From NCBI GenBank assembly GCA_016193065.1, contig JACPSX010000235.1, positions 1-17,357 on the forward strand: 17,357 nucleotides of DNA, written 5' to 3'. The position numbers were made by a program, and so were the translations under genes. Shown here in pieces: positions 105 through 11,345 of the stretch (position 1 is the first letter of the stretch; each line of letters opens with the position of its first letter). This stretch comes from Candidatus Tectimicrobiota bacterium (GTDB lineage: Bacteria; JACPSX01). A model generated the notes under the pieces. That model was not told the origin of the DNA and made no database searches. It worked only from the letters and a program-made list of their open reading frames with translations.

Positions 105-112
105 TCGCCACT
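77..112. repeat. 36-bp near-perfect palindrome at the element/integrase junction
   Basis: Arms 77-94 and 95-112 are reverse complements with one mismatch (C84 opposite T105). The inner 20 bp are the element's paired arms. The outer 8 bp on the right are target (integrase) sequence, while the matching bases on the left lie inside the element. The element end therefore holds a near reverse-complement copy of its own target. Confidence 0.85.
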
Positions 113-783: not shown

Positions 784-952
784 GATCGACCTCCTCTGAA
801 AAGCGGCGACCCCCATGGCCGCCGAGAAGACCCATCATGAAATCTTATGTGCTGCATTCCAAGAGAAATGACCTGACCGGCAAGCACTTACCGAAGCGAC
901 TCTACATAACCCTCCGCTGCGCATAATAAATCTTATGTGCAGCTGCACATAA
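204..952. mobile_element. 749-bp tyrosine-recombinase mini-element inserted in intI
   Basis: GATTTA borders the element on both sides (198-203 and 953-958). The left end is arm TTATGCGCAG (204-213), 7 bp, then the same arm again (221-230). The right end is arm CTGCGCATAA (917-926), spacer TAAATC, inverted arm TTATGTGCAG (933-942), then arm CTGCACATAA (943-952). Subterminal arm copies lie at 277-286 (CTGCACATAA, identical) and 845-854 (TTATGTGCTG, 9/10). Joining the two ends would give a classic core site: CTGCACATAA, 6-bp GATTTA, TTATGCGCAG. The only gene inside is a truncated tyrosine recombinase, so the element is probably non-autonomous and mobilised in trans. RIT-type elements are my best family guess, by inference only. 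The boundaries are supported by exact restoration of the intI frame. Confidence 0.8.
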
Positions 953-957
953 GATTT
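928..957. repeat. 30-bp perfect palindrome at the right end of the mini-element
   Basis: aaatcttatgtgcag (928-942) is followed immediately by its exact reverse complement (943-957). The central 20 bp are the paired recombinase arms. The outer 5 bp on the right are target DNA (part of GATTTA), and those on the left are the TAAATC spacer inside the element, which is the reverse complement of the target duplication. It could form a cruciform. Confidence 0.9.
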
Positions 958-1203
958 ACACCCATGTCTTGAATCGGGGCGGGCGTGGGGTCTACAGCCC
1001 TGCGGATCGGCTCGGATTGGAGAGGCTTTCGCACGGCTCGCCCGGAAATAGGCTGCGGGCCGATAGCGGGATAGGCTGCCAGACTGGCCGTATTTTTCGG
1101 ACGAAAAATGGTTGAAACGGTTTTCGTAATTGACGGATACTAAACGCGCTTTCTGTTTTAAACGGATCGGGGATCTGTCGGGGATAGGCCGCCAGCAATG
1201 ACA

Positions 1204-2963: not shown

Positions 2964-3578
2964 TGTGATTTTTCAGGAGTATTCCCCCACTTTTAGCTGA
3001 GTTTTTCAGGAGCTTTCCGCCACCCCTTTTCAGGACCATTCCCCCACCCCCCGTGCGTCCCGAGTCGGGGATTCTCACCTCCCAGGAAAGGAGGTGGGCA
3101 TGGCCTATCGGGAGATGGGGATGGTGGAGATTCGAGAAGTAGTCCGCCGCTGGATGGGGAGCCAGGGCAACCGCGCCATTGCCCGGGCCACGGGCATCGA
3201 CCGGAAGACGGTGGCCAAGTACGTACGAGCGGCCCAAACCCTGGGCTTGTGTCGCGGGGGGCTGGCGGCGACCGACGAGCAGATCGCCGCCGTGCGACAG
3301 GCGGTGCTCTCGGCTCCCGAGCGCCCACCGAGCCCCGAGTCCCAAACACTGGAGCCCTATCGGGAACAGATCCGCGCCTGGTTGTCCCAGGATGGTCTGC
3401 GCTTGACCAAGATCTCCCGGCGGCTGAGGGCTCTGGGAGTCACCGTCTCCTACAGCACTCTCTATCGCTTCGCCCGCGCTCACTGCGACTTTGGCAACCC
3501 CGCGATCACCGTGCGGGTGGCCGAGCCTCCGCCCGGGGAAGCCGCCGAGGCCGACTTTGGAGTGCTCGGGATGTGCGG
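2964..3578 (+). mobile_element. IS21-family insertion sequence, left end with truncated istA
   Basis: The left terminus starts TGTGATTTTTCAGGAG at 2964. Two further copies of the tttttcagga...ttcc.ccac unit follow at about 3002 and 3027, the multiple terminal repeats typical of IS21-family ends (transposase-binding sites). It continues into istA and stops abruptly near 3578, where REP-type transposase remnant sequence begins. istB and the right end are absent from the window. Confidence 0.75.
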
Positions 3579-3984: not shown

Positions 3985-4869
3985 GTGACCGATCTCCCTG
4001 CAATCTCCTTTCTGCAATTGCGTCGACGGTTTTTTAGCGACGCCGGAGAACCCATCCCCTTCGTCCTGCGCGACAAACGCAACACCCAGGATGATCCATT
4101 CGACGAATTCCTTGCGGTTGATGTACTTGCCAACCTTGCCGCGATCTCGTGCGCCAGGGCAAGCGGTCCGCTTATCACGCCGGATATGGTCCTGTACCGG
4201 CCGGATCGGTGTGCCGGATCGGTGCTCGGCGACCTTGCCGACGACCCGGACCGGATTGTTGGGATCGAGGTGAAGAAGCTGGAACGGACGGCTCAAGGTG
4301 GTGTTGCCCGAGGGGCGGGCCTCGACTACAACACGACGCCGCCTTGCGGCCGAGTTCGCGTCTACGATGTGGCAGGAAGGGCTGTGGACATACGGGGGTT
4401 CTACCTCTTCGTGTGCTTGGAGAAGGCCCCTGCTGGCGCCCAAGGCGTTGTGGTCACGGCGCTGTGTCTAGTGGATGGGAACACCCTGAACGAAGACTTC
4501 AACTTGTACCTCAGCATCACCGGCGAGCGGGAGAAGCGTATCGGGCTCGGCACCTACGGGGACGGTGCCGACCGGGCGCGGCCAATGCTGATCTTCGCCA
4601 ATCCACTCGGTGCGGCTGAACTGGATCACTGTGCCACATTGATCCACCCCGACGCCAACCTCTCACAGAGCACGCCTGACCTGCTGCTCGCGTACCGTCT
4701 CCACCGGTCCGTTCCGGGCGATGGCATCCGGACCTTCTACTGCTACCGGATTAGCTCCGATCTGCCCCAGGATTGGCGGGTCAGCGACCTCCGGGATCCG
4801 CTTCCCATGCCAACCCGAGAAGCTCGGACCCGTCCACGGGGCCGCTTCAAGCTTCCCTTCCGCCTATAG
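3985..4869 (+). CDS. Putative type II restriction endonuclease (PD-(D/E)XK fold)
   Basis: This is a 294-residue soluble protein with a GTG start preceded by gagaggg. Residues 64-71 read ITPDMVLYR and residues 93-98 GIEVKK, giving the PD...ExK arrangement (Asp67, Glu95, Lys97) of PD-(D/E)XK nucleases. The stretch after it, GLDYNTTPPCGRVRVYD, looks like a conserved block, perhaps DNA recognition. I do not recognise a named enzyme. The gene is convergent with the adjacent methyltransferase gene and overlaps its 3' end by 23 bases, the arrangement expected of a restriction-modification pair. Cleavage of unmethylated DNA is therefore inferred from motif plus context. It has its own candidate promoter and a leader inverted repeat, which would let the nuclease be delayed relative to the methyltransferase. 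Recognition sequence cannot be predicted. Confidence 0.7.
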   Translation: MTDLPAISFLQLRRRFFSDAGEPIPFVLRDKRNTQDDPFDEFLAVDVLANLAAISCARASGPLITPDMVLYRPDRCAGSVLGDLADDPDRIVGIEVKKLERTAQGGVARGAGLDYNTTPPCGRVRVYDVAGRAVDIRGFYLFVCLEKAPAGAQGVVVTALCLVDGNTLNEDFNLYLSITGEREKRIGLGTYGDGADRARPMLIFANPLGAAELDHCATLIHPDANLSQSTPDLLLAYRLHRSVPGDGIRTFYCYRISSDLPQDWRVSDLRDPLPMPTREARTRPRGRFKLPFRL

Positions 4870-7372
4870 ACGCGGGCTCCAAGAGATCGAGCTGTACCGA
4901 CCCAGGCTGCGGTGCCACAGGGCCTGGCAGGGCACATATCTCTTGCTCGCGCCATGTCTTTTCGATAATTCCGCGAGTCCTGGGCAGGACAACCTCAAGG
5001 GCAGCACTCACCTCGTCCGCGGTCCGGCCTACGCTCATCTCCACGAGGAGCTGACTGAGTAGGACCACTCGCACATCGTTGCGGGAGAGCTGGCGCCCCA
5101 CCCCGTTGAATCGGCTGACCTTCTGACTGGTGCTTGCGACGGCGCGTTGCAGGGCTACGTTTTGCTCACTCCGGATGCGGTGATCTGAATTCCGCTTTCG
5201 GCAGACGAGAAGCACATCGAGGTCGATTGGCTCCTTCGCCTGACTCTTCGGAGCGGCTACTGACATCTCGGCCTTGACCGGCTGGCTCTGAACGATCGTG
5301 AACCCCGCGTCGCGAACGGCCCGCGCCAGGGCGGCCCACCCGTCCTCCCGCGAGTGGTGGTAGCTGAAGACGAGGAGACCTTCGTCCCGCAGCACGCGGT
5401 GGCACTCGGCAAAGACGCGCTTCAGCTTGTCCGCGAACGCATCGGCTTCCGTATCCTGGACTTCGGTGTTTCGCCGCGTCGTGGAAGCACCCTTCGAGCG
5501 ACCGTCACCGAAGTAGAGCTGCTGCCACACGAAGAAGAAGTCGGCGAGTTCGGAGAAGTGGACGTTGTAAAAGAAGGGCGGGTCCGTGATCACGAGGTCA
5601 ACGCTCCCGTCGGGAAGATCTGTGGCTGACGAGTCCCCGCAAGAGAGGTACGTGCTGCCAGGCTTCAGACCGCTTTTCGGACAGCGCTCGACGACAGGAC
5701 CACCCATTGGCGGGCTGATACCCACGACCTTCCTGCCTGTCTTCCGTCGGCCCGCGTACTCCACTGCGAGTTCAAAGGGGGCTTCACGGTAGTCGAGCGC
5801 GCGAAGCAGCCGAGACAAGTACAGCGTCGAGAAAGAGCCCGAGCTCTTCGGGGTACCCCATAGGTTGGCCTCGATGGGTGTTCGCTCCGGCTTCAAGATG
5901 TGATGCGAGAACATGTGCCGCACCGCGCCTGTGCCTTCCCCCTTATAGGACGCGAACATATTGTTAAACTCGAGTACGCCCGAGAATAGCACGGCAAGCG
6001 CTTCTCGGGCCGGGCCCTCCGGGAGATCCCGAATGGCACCAGCGAGCATCGACAGCGCAAGGAGCTGGCGCTCATTGAACAGCTCGTACCAGTTCCGATA
6101 CCCGTAGTTCAGGATCTGGCGCGTGTTGTGCCCGTCGGCGATGGGTACCCTCGGGAGCGGCGGATTGATGTTCCTCAGGCGCTCCCTTGCGGTATGGAAC
6201 GCGGCCAAGTCGTCGTCGGTAACGCGATGGTACCCTTTGGTTCCGTCCTTCCGAAGGACCAGCTTTGCGTATAGTCTGTGATCTGGAGGCTTACCAGCGC
6301 TCCGCGCCGTTTTCGCGATCGGGAACTCGTGTCCACACGAGCGGCAGACGGCTGTGGTTCGCTTCGCGGGCCCCTCCTGGGGATTGAAGCGCGTGCCACA
6401 CCGGCATATAGTCTCGGTATCGTCTTGTCGCCCCGAGAGCACATCGCTGCATTCTGGACAGGTGATCTTGGCCCCCGGGTTCCGCTCTTTATACGCGTGT
6501 GTCGCGAATACATAGCTTGTGAAGAGATCCACACTTGCCCTGCAGTGAGGGCACGGAATGACTTTGACCCAGAAGAAGTACAGTACGTCGCATGGTTGTC
6601 CCTCCCCGTCGACGGAGCGATAAAGCTTCTTGATCTCCTTGCCGACGGTGGACTCAAGCTTGCAGTAGAGAGCGTGGACCTCCCGGCGGTCCACTGGACC
6701 GAGTGCGACCCGGACCGCACGGTACGCCACGGCGTTGATGTCTCGGCCGATGACAGTGCACCCGAGCTTCTGCGCCTCGCCGACAGTAGTCCCGCTGCCC
6801 ATGAACGGGTCGAACACCACAACGCCTGGCAGGCGGACAGGTTCGTAGAAAAGGTCCGTGACCGACGAACCCTTGGGGGCCGCCGCCCCGAGGATTGCCG
6901 CTCGGAAGACAGATCCAAGACGTTGCGCCCACCACTTGTGGACGTGGTAAATGGGCCTGTAGATCTCCTTGCGCCAGCTCTCGACTTCGGCGATCTCACT
7001 GACCTCCTCGAAAGGGAAACCATCTTCGATCGCACGCTCGCCTTGCACGGCAAAGAGAGGCTTTCCGTAGGGCGCTCCGGGGTCAGCGGCGCACATCTCC
7101 GCAATTGTCCTCAGCGCGGCTGCCACCCGGTAGGGTTGCCTCACCACCATGGCTCGGATAGGTTCAGGAAGGCGCCCGGCAAGGAGCAGGATTTCGTCTT
7201 CTGGACACTCTAGAAACCTGGCGAGGCGGTGAATCAGTTGTTCCGAGGGAGGGACCTTGCCGGCTTCGACTCGGGACAAATAAGCGGGGTCGACACCTAG
7301 CTTCTGGGCAGCGAGGCGAAGAGAGATCCCTAGGGAAGTCCGTCGGTTCCGAATAAAAGTTCCAAAACTCAT
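4847..7372 (-). CDS. XRE-HTH / zinc-ribbon / DNA methyltransferase fusion (DUF1156-like)
   Basis: This 841-residue protein begins with an XRE-type helix-turn-helix (residues 1-65, with LRLAAQKLGVDPAYLSRVEA). Residues 140-165 (KWWAQRLGSVFRAA) precede the SAM-binding motif DPFMGSGTT (188-196). Four Cys pairs follow, CPHC 274-277, CPEC 305-308, CRC 323-325 and CRSC 343-346, likely zinc ribbons. The catalytic TDPPF motif is at 596-600, followed by LADFFFVW. The order SAM motif, insert, DPPF and the WWA and zinc blocks resemble DUF1156-type DNA methylases; amino-methylation (N6-A or N4-C) is inferred from DPPF. The tail (about 740-841) has no family I recognise. An N-terminal HTH on a methyltransferase usually represses its own promoter, as in the SsoII/EcoRII type, and a palindrome sits on this promoter. 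It is convergent with a nuclease gene. Confidence 0.8.
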   Translation of the reverse strand: MSFGTFIRNRRTSLGISLRLAAQKLGVDPAYLSRVEAGKVPPSEQLIHRLARFLECPEDEILLLAGRLPEPIRAMVVRQPYRVAAALRTIAEMCAADPGAPYGKPLFAVQGERAIEDGFPFEEVSEIAEVESWRKEIYRPIYHVHKWWAQRLGSVFRAAILGAAAPKGSSVTDLFYEPVRLPGVVVFDPFMGSGTTVGEAQKLGCTVIGRDINAVAYRAVRVALGPVDRREVHALYCKLESTVGKEIKKLYRSVDGEGQPCDVLYFFWVKVIPCPHCRASVDLFTSYVFATHAYKERNPGAKITCPECSDVLSGRQDDTETICRCGTRFNPQEGPAKRTTAVCRSCGHEFPIAKTARSAGKPPDHRLYAKLVLRKDGTKGYHRVTDDDLAAFHTARERLRNINPPLPRVPIADGHNTRQILNYGYRNWYELFNERQLLALSMLAGAIRDLPEGPAREALAVLFSGVLEFNNMFASYKGEGTGAVRHMFSHHILKPERTPIEANLWGTPKSSGSFSTLYLSRLLRALDYREAPFELAVEYAGRRKTGRKVVGISPPMGGPVVERCPKSGLKPGSTYLSCGDSSATDLPDGSVDLVITDPPFFYNVHFSELADFFFVWQQLYFGDGRSKGASTTRRNTEVQDTEADAFADKLKRVFAECHRVLRDEGLLVFSYHHSREDGWAALARAVRDAGFTIVQSQPVKAEMSVAAPKSQAKEPIDLDVLLVCRKRNSDHRIRSEQNVALQRAVASTSQKVSRFNGVGRQLSRNDVRVVLLSQLLVEMSVGRTADEVSAALEVVLPRTRGIIEKTWREQEICALPGPVAPQPGSVQLDLLEPASIGGREA

Positions 7373-7410: not shown

Positions 7411-7523
7411 CTTTTCTGTCAAACCGCTGTGAATGTATGCGAGACAGCATGATACGTCCAGAGTCTCTTTCGTTCAGCCGTCACGACAGGTATTAGCAGG
7501 AGGGGTCAGGAAGGGGTCACAGG

Positions 7524-7902
7524 AAGGGGTCAGGCTTGCGGAATTGCTTTGTGATGTTTGAAGAATGGTTTCGCCTCTGGCCTGCCTGTGCGCCTGCCCG
7601 CGCGGACACGCAGGCGGGGACACGCAGACAGGCCCGCCCGCGCTGGCGATGCGCTGCAATGCCCCCACCGCCCGACTCAGCGTTGAGACGTCCCGGTTGA
7701 ACCGTCGGGCGACTTCCGTCAGCGGCGCCGCACGGGTGCGCATTGTCAACCACCCGATCAAGGCGCGCGCCCGAGCCGCCTCGCGGCTTACCGCCCTCGC
7801 GAGACTCATCGCGCGGTTGCAGGTAATCCGTCCCTCCGGCGCGCAAGCGCGCATTGGGTCTGGCAGCTCAAGCCGCCGCCGCTCTCGGCACGAGATCATC
7901 AT
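7524..7902 (-). pseudogene. REP-type tyrosine transposase remnant, 3' part (copy 2)
   Basis: The minus strand reads from about 7902 with REAARARALIGWLTMRTR, then APLTEVARRFNRDVSTLSRA, the C-terminal DnaA-like helix-turn-helix of RAYT proteins. The catalytic HUH domain is missing. Compared with the copy at 3585-3745, it carries about 45 extra bases (roughly 7577-7636) with direct repeats of gacacgcag and G/C-rich self-complementary arms, resembling a small REP hairpin insertion. The end aaggggtcaggcttgcg (7524-7540) is preceded by two further partial copies of aggggtca at 7501-7520. The copy probably continued upstream before hicB was placed beside it. Confidence 0.65.
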
Positions 7903-8366: not shown

Positions 8367-8385
8367 AGCAGGGGGCAAGCGGTCA

Positions 8386-8430
8386 AGTAGGGGTCCGGCT
8401 TGCGTAATTGCTTTTTGGTGTTTGAACAAT
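8386..8430 (+). repeat. Terminal repeat of the REP-type transposase family (copy 3)
   Basis: aggggtccggcttgcgtaattgc and the following tttgaacaatg closely match 3586-3630 and 7525-7567, in the same orientation. No coding part of the transposase remains. The repeat ends exactly at the start of the ribosome-binding region of the first cupin gene. Confidence 0.75.
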
Positions 8431-8443
8431 GAGAGGAGATTTC

Positions 8444-9663: not shown

Positions 9664-10491
9664 ATGGCACGAAATATAACTAGTCTTGGCGCCAAGGAAA
9701 GCGACTTTCTGACCAGTCTTGCTGCAAAGGGTAAGACAATCTTTACCGGGCGGGAAGTCCGAGAATTGCTAGGTCTTTCATCCACTCCGAAACTCTTACT
9801 TTCCCGATTGGAGCGAAAGGGGTGGGTCAAGCGGTTGGAGAGAGACCGCTACCTCTTGGTTCCCCTGGAAGCGGGACCCGAGCGTCTCTGGTCGGAGGAC
9901 GCTACGCTGGTCGCGATGGCCTTGGCACCGGAAGGGGCCCTGGCTTACTGGTCAGCTATCCGCCATTGGGGGTGGACCGATCAACTTCCGCGCACCGTTT
10001 TCGTTCAGATGATGCGGCGTCGGGCCAACTCGATCGTTGAGGCCCTCGGGGTGACCTATCGTTTCGTCACGGTCCGGCCGATCCGGTTCTTCGGGGTTAT
10101 CGAGGAGCGAGCCGATCATCGGACCTTCCGGGTCACCGATCGGGAAAAGACAGTGATTGATATTCTCGACCGGATCGACCTTTCCGGAGGGTCGGGACAG
10201 GTCATCCAGACCTTAGAGGAAGCTGTGGAAGAACTGCGTTGGGATAGGCTGGATGGCTACCTTCGCAGGTTCAGGAGCAGGACTGTACCGAAACGCCTGG
10301 GCTTCCTGGTAGAAGCCCTTCCCCTGAAGGTTCCCGACCGGGAACATCGACTGGCGGAATGGCAGAGGCTTATCGGTCGTGGGATCAGTCTTCTTGATCC
10401 GGGGGGCCCGGCACTCGGACCTATCATCACCCGATGGCGGGTGCGAGTGAATGTCCACGGGTTGATTCCAGAGTCCTTCACGTCCTTATGA
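9664..10491 (+). CDS. abiEi: AbiEi-type antitoxin / transcriptional repressor
   Basis: This 275-residue protein has an N-terminal winged helix-turn-helix (about residues 10-65, including REVRELLGLSSTPKLLLSRL and the RDRYLLVPLEAG wing). The middle part (YWSAIRHWGWTDQLPRTVFV) and the FRVTDREKTVIDILDRIDLS block are typical of AbiEi proteins. In type IV toxin-antitoxin systems AbiEi represses the operon and counteracts the AbiEii nucleotidyltransferase without binding it. ATG 9664 follows ggag by 8 bases. The stop overlaps the abiEii start as ATGA, implying translational coupling and the standard antitoxin-first order. The C-terminal domain is longer than a bare HTH regulator, as expected. High confidence in the family; the phage target is unknown. 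Confidence 0.85.
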   Translation: MARNITSLGAKESDFLTSLAAKGKTIFTGREVRELLGLSSTPKLLLSRLERKGWVKRLERDRYLLVPLEAGPERLWSEDATLVAMALAPEGALAYWSAIRHWGWTDQLPRTVFVQMMRRRANSIVEALGVTYRFVTVRPIRFFGVIEERADHRTFRVTDREKTVIDILDRIDLSGGSGQVIQTLEEAVEELRWDRLDGYLRRFRSRTVPKRLGFLVEALPLKVPDREHRLAEWQRLIGRGISLLDPGGPALGPIITRWRVRVNVHGLIPESFTSL

Positions 10492-11345
10492 TCCCCGATA
10501 GTGAGATCCGTCAGCGTGCTCGAAGTGATGATGTGGAGCCGGTCATCGTGGAGCGGGATTATGTGCTCGGGTGGGTTCTGGCAGGTTGTTTCCGACCGGA
10601 GATAGAAAAAGGATTATGGTTCTTTAAGGGAGGCACCTGCCTCAAGAAGTGCTATTTTCCGGACTATCGGTTTTCACAAGACCTTGATTTCACTCTGACG
10701 ACGCCGCTGGCCTCATCGGAAGTTGAAGGGATACTTGACGAAGCGATGCGATGGGCTGAAGAAGCTTCGGGCATTCGGTTCAGCGAGCGGCCCATTCGCC
10801 ACCAAGTCGTTTTCGAAGGGACACAGCAGGAGACTCACCGCTTTAAGGTTTATTACCGAGGCCCCCACAGACAGGTAGGGGACCAGCCGTCAATCAAGCT
10901 GGACTTGACGCTCAATGAGCGAGTCCTGATTCCTGCAGTGGAACGCCCTCTGGTTCACCCATATTCTGACCAGGAAATCCAAGGATCCATCGCTATCCGT
11001 TCGTATACCCTTGAGGAAGTATTGGCAGAGAAGATCCGGGCAGTGAGTGGGCAGCGCCGCTACGCGCTTTCTCGAGATCTGTTCGACATTCACCAACTGA
11101 TCCGGAGGGGGGCCGACATAATTCGAGTTGCTCGGATTCTGCGGGAAAAGTGCGCGCTCAAGGGAGTTCCTGTTGAAGCAGTCTCGGCGAAAACTCTTTC
11201 ACAGAGAAAGGAGTCGTTTCATCGGGACTGGGAGACCAACCTTTTCCACCTCCTGCCTCTCCATCTTCGTGTCCCCTTTGAGGAAAGTTGGGATGAGGCC
11301 ACCGCAGGGGTTGAGTCGGTTCGCCGAGAACTCAACGCACCATGA
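10488..11345 (+). CDS. abiEii: AbiEii/AbiGii nucleotidyltransferase toxin
   Basis: This 285-residue protein has the DNA-polymerase-beta-like nucleotidyltransferase signature: FKGGTCLKKCYF then YRFSQDLDFTL around residues 38-65 (Gly-Gly-Thr, then Ser...Asp-x-Asp, metal-binding). A third acid lies in IKLDLTLNE. The later block LEEVLAEKIRAVSG then SRDLFDIHQLI is also characteristic. The protein is expected to add nucleotides to an RNA target, blocking translation or growth when released from AbiEi control. ATG 10488 overlaps the abiEi stop by four bases; an upstream in-frame start at 10434 would overlap much more and is unlikely. All motifs look intact, so the operon appears functional. About 200 bases without a gene follow. 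Confidence 0.85.
   Translation: MIPDSEIRQRARSDDVEPVIVERDYVLGWVLAGCFRPEIEKGLWFFKGGTCLKKCYFPDYRFSQDLDFTLTTPLASSEVEGILDEAMRWAEEASGIRFSERPIRHQVVFEGTQQETHRFKVYYRGPHRQVGDQPSIKLDLTLNERVLIPAVERPLVHPYSDQEIQGSIAIRSYTLEEVLAEKIRAVSGQRRYALSRDLFDIHQLIRRGADIIRVARILREKCALKGVPVEAVSAKTLSQRKESFHRDWETNLFHLLPLHLRVPFEESWDEATAGVESVRRELNAP

Follow-up and report, generated by a model that had tools for sequence, protein, structure and literature searches.

The window (the whole stretch of DNA that was analysed, 17,357 bp) is an entire contig of a 2.9-Mb draft genome and opens with an integron-type integrase gene into which two mobile elements are inserted. The tyrosine recombinase gene fragment lies on the forward strand at 106-203, with matches to Pfam Phage_integrase and NCBIfam integrase_gron, and its frame resumes at 953 and runs to approximately 1014 (IYTHVLNRGGRGVYSPADRL), as judged from translation of the joined flanks and tblastn to intI1. 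With the flanks joined, at least 5000 plasmid records contain a matching integrase gene, of which intI1 is the best named match. This single frame (106-203 and from 953) is broken twice, by element 1 at its Arg-His codons and by element 2 at its Ile-Tyr codons.

Element 2 (204-952, 749 bp) is an internally deleted mini-RIT (recombinase-in-trio) and is probably non-autonomous. On the reverse strand at 780-241 it carries a fragment of ritA, the N-terminal part of the first RIT recombinase, identified by tblastn and alignment (approximately 50% identity over 157 residues with Cupriavidus ritA, E 3e-43), and it is without the adjacent overlapping ritA, ritB and ritC genes. Because a ritA fragment is all that it holds we filed it as a RIT-derived mini-element and not as an intact RIT. 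At its left end the hexamer GATTTA (198-203), the left footprint L, is followed by the repeat a1 (TTATGCGCAG, 204-213), a 7-bp gap and the repeat a2 (TTATGCGCAG, 221-230), an end that an earlier note on this DNA had overlooked. At the right end a1' (CTGCGCATAA, 917-926), the reverse complement of a1, is followed by the internal spacer I (TAAATC, 927-932, which is GATTTA in target orientation), a 20-bp palindrome (933-952) with the halves b (TTATGTGCAG, 933-942) and b' (CTGCACATAA, 943-952), and the hexamer R (GATTTA, 953-958) adjoining the 20-mer. Terminal inverted repeats a1/a1' and the overlapping palindrome are ordered as in full RITs. We take L to be the native target hexamer, as the same codons of uninterrupted intI1 read GATTTA; at this site uninterrupted integron integrase genes have GATTTA or GATCTA.

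The earlier note had claimed that the spacer of element 2 is the exact reverse complement of the hexamer at 953-958, which holds at 6/6 bases and extends to 198-203 at the other end, and L, R and the reverse complement of I all read GATTTA. The perfect palindrome described at this end is present with a length of 32 bp (927-958) instead of 30. In addition, the circle junction predicted below (943-952, GATTTA and 204-213) has its exact reverse complement at 917-942.

Element 1 (1-104) is cut by the contig start, which leaves its right-hand part with a visible RIT-type end at 52-104. This end shows the repeat a2' (CTCGGCATAG, 52-61), a 7-bp gap and a1' (CTCGGCATAG, 69-78), in the order seen in the RIT ends of the Rhodococcus copy L005, followed by the internal spacer TGGCGC (79-84; GCGCCA in target orientation), a 20-bp palindrome (TTATGCCGAG/CTCGGCATAA, 85-104) and the adjoining hexamer TCGCCA (105-110), which lies on the Leu-Arg-His codons of the integrase. 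As had been claimed, spacer and adjoining hexamer are reverse complements at 5/6 bases. GCGCCA inside and TCGCCA beside the 20-mer differ at one base, in the third position of the leucine codon, which is what two different integrase targets would give; uninterrupted integron integrase genes have CCGCCA or GCGCCA at this site, GCGCCA being a native variant of these codons in another integrase gene (L262).

The three hexamers of element 2 are equal, so the window alone does not discriminate between models and its relatives decide. The window's own genome holds a single copy of the element and a search of viral contigs gave no relative of its ritA fragment. Downstream of the integrase the window encodes an FRG-domain protein and then a HEAT-repeat protein (1319-2110 and 2225-2947), an 841-aa protein in which an HTH domain is joined to an N6/N4 DNA methylase, with a weak DUF1156 match (4847-7372, reverse strand), and an AbiEi/AbiEii toxin-antitoxin pair (9664-11345). 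It also contains three copies of the short repeat TTTTCAGGA (2970-3050) and a 48-bp direct repeat (7520-7567 and 8384-8431, 85% identical, spaced 864 bp).

RIT ends and their target hexamers

RITs are known elements (PMC3414803, PMC2864759, PMC8138268) whose transposition is listed as untested or never reproduced (PMC10214605). The available part of one description mentions a 28-9 bp inverted repeat with an overlapping palindrome and, in that part, no hexamer slots (PMC3414803), and an insertion in the tnpA gene of IS66 has been noted (PMC2864759). We scanned 86 RIT loci (6 from plasmids and 80 fetched with a RitA alignment) using the 20-bp palindrome and the arms as the only criteria, the hexamers never being used. 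The anatomy L-a1...a1'-I-b/b'-R was found in approximately 35 of these loci, with hosts among Proteobacteria, Bacillota, Bacteroidota, Actinomycetota, Acidobacteria, Planctomycetes and others, and the palindrome lies at the ritC end in some loci and at the ritA end in others. Element 2 is like the known RITs (ritABC of Cupriavidus metallidurans CH34, plasmid pHG1) in the ritA homology of its fragment, in an end anatomy identical to that of pHG1 and other RITs and in its insertion in a gene of another mobile element, and differs from them in its internal deletion to 749 bp, with part of ritA only.

Where the 20-mer is imperfect its orientation to the element body was fixed in 37/37 copies, which were opened on either side of it (forms A and B). 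Forms A and B are circular permutations, so either of two core sites in a circle would be usable. The site left unused would keep its hexamer inside the element, and this hexamer is the internal spacer of the earlier note. The fixed orientation also bears on whether the hexamers are equalised in place, by inversion between the inverted core sites giving heteroduplex spacers that replication would resolve, with I becoming L or R. Ordinary tyrosine-recombinase chemistry would presumably do so, and this would explain the identity of I and L in L104, a copy without a donor among those sampled; inversion of the body would however uncouple the orientation of the 20-mer, and I differs from L in the B-form copies L106, L167, L169, L171, L205 and L207. 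On the orientation lock we rejected in-place inversion as the main explanation and regard it as unlikely, while homogenisation may act occasionally.

Joining of the host flanks placed the RIT hexamers on codons of conserved motifs in proteins of other mobile elements (L103-L106, L164-L172, L204-L213, L037, L040, L069, L072 and L078; window 105-110 and 198-203). We take these motifs to be Q-G-G of group II intron reverse transcriptase, the P-loop G-K of IstB, G-R-K of IS66 transposase, N-E-K-G-x-V-E of an IstA-like transposase and the catalytic motifs of tyrosine recombinases. Variation within the hexamer falls, for most families, at positions 1 and 4, mostly third codon (wobble) positions. When hexamers were shuffled within target classes I resembled L and R beyond expectation (p approximately 0.002-0.009 in three motif classes, and 0/5000 in a mixed group of other targets which includes a few false matches), and the spacer-target match reported from the window is in this respect above chance across RIT loci. 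Individual loci variously have I equal to L, I equal to R, all three equal, or L equal to R with a different I.

Near-identical copies and the probable movement of hexamers

Copies of one family at different targets provided the comparison that the earlier note had proposed. In Neobacillus PS3-12 all four copies of one RIT lie in group II intron reverse transcriptase genes, three differing by 0-1 bases in 3443 and the fourth being one base shorter. R is GCCTCC in 4/4, L reads GCCTCC, ACCTCC, GCCACC and TCCACC, and I (in target orientation and the same copy order) reads GCCTCC, ACCTCC, TCCACC and GCCTCC; I is therefore neither fixed nor simply the adjacent or current target. In a relative genome, G187, one RIT is present six times and another three times, and genomes G280 and G604 contain four RIT copies each. 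The G280 hexamers are strongly divergent (GCCGCA, CCGCCG, ACGAAA and TGTGAG), which allows single hexamers to be followed between copies. ACGAAA, the target of L207, recurs in the I position of L205 and L206 and in the R position of L204; CCGCCG, the hexamer targeted by both L205 and L206, recurs as I of L204 and as R of L205 and L207. Across L204-L207 I equals the target of another copy in 3/4.

The earlier note had suggested that target DNA is copied or folded back at insertion, the reverse complement of the new target being written into the internal spacer. This would fit the window and approximately ten other loci in which I is the reverse complement of both L and R, as well as L104 and L166, where I matches L while R differs. 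It is contradicted by the near-identical copies at different targets, in which I does not track L: none of the four G280 copies has an I related to its current L, I differs from L in L167 and L168, and it equals L in 8/23 copies of multi-copy families against a shuffle expectation of 8.0 (p 0.61). Covariation of the spacer with the current target, as had been proposed, was not found among these copies, and target copying appears very unlikely.

A second possibility is that the spacer is fixed and that targets complementary to it are selected. Hexamers are indeed alike within one target class, being on the same protein motif, but I differs in L103 and L106 from L104, copies with 0-1 other differences, and the single fixed spacer that would have refuted the earlier note was not seen. 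In addition R and L share only 1/6 bases in L206 and 2/6 in L204, so insertion can proceed between dissimilar hexamers and hexamer identity is not the site selector; we consider selection by complementarity highly improbable.

The G280 copies also speak to a folded single-strand substrate resembling attC, in which a junction hairpin would select for pairing of I with the other hexamer. The window junction a1'-I-b/b'-N6-a1 is a perfect palindrome, from which a hairpin core site can be drawn; however, the recently moved families leave I and R unpaired (L204, L206 and L207), and therefore pairing of the hexamers is not required, although the arms alone may fold. Strict hexamer pairing was rejected as the main explanation on the G280 evidence, and there is little probability that it accounts for the match.

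Which of the two outer hexamers is native was judged from copies sharing a host site. At four such sites (L166/L169, L205/L206, L209/L210/L211 and L005/L256) the copies share L and differ in R, and at two of them uninterrupted relatives carry the exact L (TCCACC in 7 sites of G125, CCGCCG in G342). From these shared-host and empty-site comparisons we conclude that the native hexamer is L, which lies at the end away from the 20-mer, and that R is brought by the element. By comparison between sequenced copies we could establish the end anatomy, the constancy of L at each site, the occurrence of other copies' hexamers in I and R, and the A/B permutation.

We consider it very likely that RIT ends act as a two-slot register of earlier targets, in which a slot matches the present target only when the same codons are targeted repeatedly. 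A RIT circle would run from the body through slot S1, the 20-bp palindrome and slot S2 back to the body, and would have a1'-S1-b and b'-S2-a1 as its two core sites for tyrosine recombinase; the crossover in each would span 6 bp, and integration could proceed through either. On integration the target hexamer would become L, at the end distant from the 20-mer, R beside the 20-mer would be whatever hexamer the circle had carried in the used site, and I would be the hexamer of the unused site, kept inside the end. When a new circle leaves, L would become the content of the used slot and R would be dropped, so that I and R would record earlier targets. We infer the circle as intermediate, the strand chosen and the persistence of the donor (copy-out). 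In the window L, R and I would all be GATTTA through repeated insertion at the integrase Met-Ile-Tyr codons; R at 953-958 and TCGCCA at 105-110 would be carried hexamers, and the spacers at 927-932 and 79-84 the slots of the unused sites. Target copying or fold-back is not required; on this model the window match would stem from successive insertions at the same conserved codons of integrase genes. The internal memory of the target proposed earlier stands in so far as I holds target-derived sequence, with an earlier target recorded and not the present one.

In order to apply the register to individual copies we used a slot rule in which R is the used slot of the incoming circle, I its other slot and L the target, the used slot taking the value of L on leaving. 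We derived the rule from the Neobacillus copies and family A of G187 and then applied it to the remainder. It gives a donor in the same genome for 16/23 copies of multi-copy families, a statistic drawn from few families in which the copies are not independent of each other. Shuffling L, I or all hexamers pooled gave means of 9.8, 8.6 and 5.4 donor links, and 16 links were reached in 7, 11 and 0 of 20,000 shuffles respectively. Shuffling the A/B form alone reached 16 links in 427/20,000, and with form ignored 7 links were left. The chains run from L164 to L169 and on to L166 and L168, with L166 leading to L165 and L167; from L171 to L170 and L172; from L208 to L210 and on to L209 and L211; from L103 through L106 to L105; from L207 to L206; and from L205 to L204. 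Seven of the 23 copies have no donor in their genome, of which five can be required family roots, while for L104 and for one of L205/L207 the donor must have been lost or have gone unsampled. With the roles of L and R swapped 13 links remain, the same chain being read backwards, and the direction therefore rests on the shared-host and empty-site evidence.

The Rhodococcus pair L005/L256, added later, fits the slot rule. Two further genome surveys gave no new multi-copy families for an independent test, and few usable copies came from plasmid searches of Rhodococcus, Aromatoleum and Mesorhizobium that were aimed at high-copy families. In G635, 20 copies at one repeated host site have L, I and R all equal to GAAGGG in both forms, as the register predicts for an unchanging target. 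Along the donor-recipient links the core site was switched 13 times and repeated 3 times (two-sided binomial 0.02, the links not being independent). This tentatively suggests an ordered register, in which the next integration would prefer the core site not written last and the slots would alternate, a possibility that we consider rather less likely than not; if it is true, insertion genealogies could be read from single copies.

Relation to known systems

In SEs the left 6-bp hexamer of the donor passes into the circle junction and from there to the right of the new copy, with the target hexamer on the left and no empty donor site made (PMC10214605). The division of RIT hexamers into a target L and a carried R follows this rule (PMC10214605). 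SEs differ in their genes (intA-tfp-intB-srap, against the three tyrosine recombinases ritABC carried by relatives of the element, the window fragment being ritA-like) and in having one junction site with one slot, whereas RITs have two core sites around the 20-mer and a second internal slot; a RIT works like an SE without being one. The RIT rule for L and R also matches the 'att-brought-in' behaviour of Tn554/Tn552-II, in which the donor att moves to the right end of the new copy and the circle spacer is biased (PMC12486829). These elements differ from RITs in the 7-bp att of Tn552-II, in their tnpABC genes and in their one slot at the right end. For recombination of a folded single strand, as at the attC of integrons, the RIT palindrome would permit a fold, but the G280 copies do not maintain pairing between the hexamers. 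Circles of Tn916-type elements carry as coupling sequences the bases flanking the former site, as in the RIT model; they differ in carrying both flanks as a heteroduplex, in moving by cut-and-paste and in having no second internal slot.

One-slot carriage is known in SEs and Tn554 and the second slot appears to be new: neither it nor the chain reading of RIT copies was found in the literature searched, which excluded the main RIT paper (Ricker et al. 2013), where parts of the end anatomy may already be described. Under the register each copy would hold a written history of its present target (L) and the hexamers of two earlier ones (R and I), and sequence would suffice to tell in which order insertions took place and which copy gave rise to which. 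RIT, SE and Tn554 would be joined under one rule of crossover-hexamer movement, and the palindrome, previously noted but not understood, would be explained. The register also yields predictions that could be checked by a simple circle-junction and mating-out experiment.

At three loci, L225 (G635), L007 (Aromatoleum EbN1) and L008 (Polaromonas), inverted copies of the same host-gene half, or of related host genes, lie on both sides of the RIT, an arrangement that would look like the product of recombination between a form A and a form B copy.
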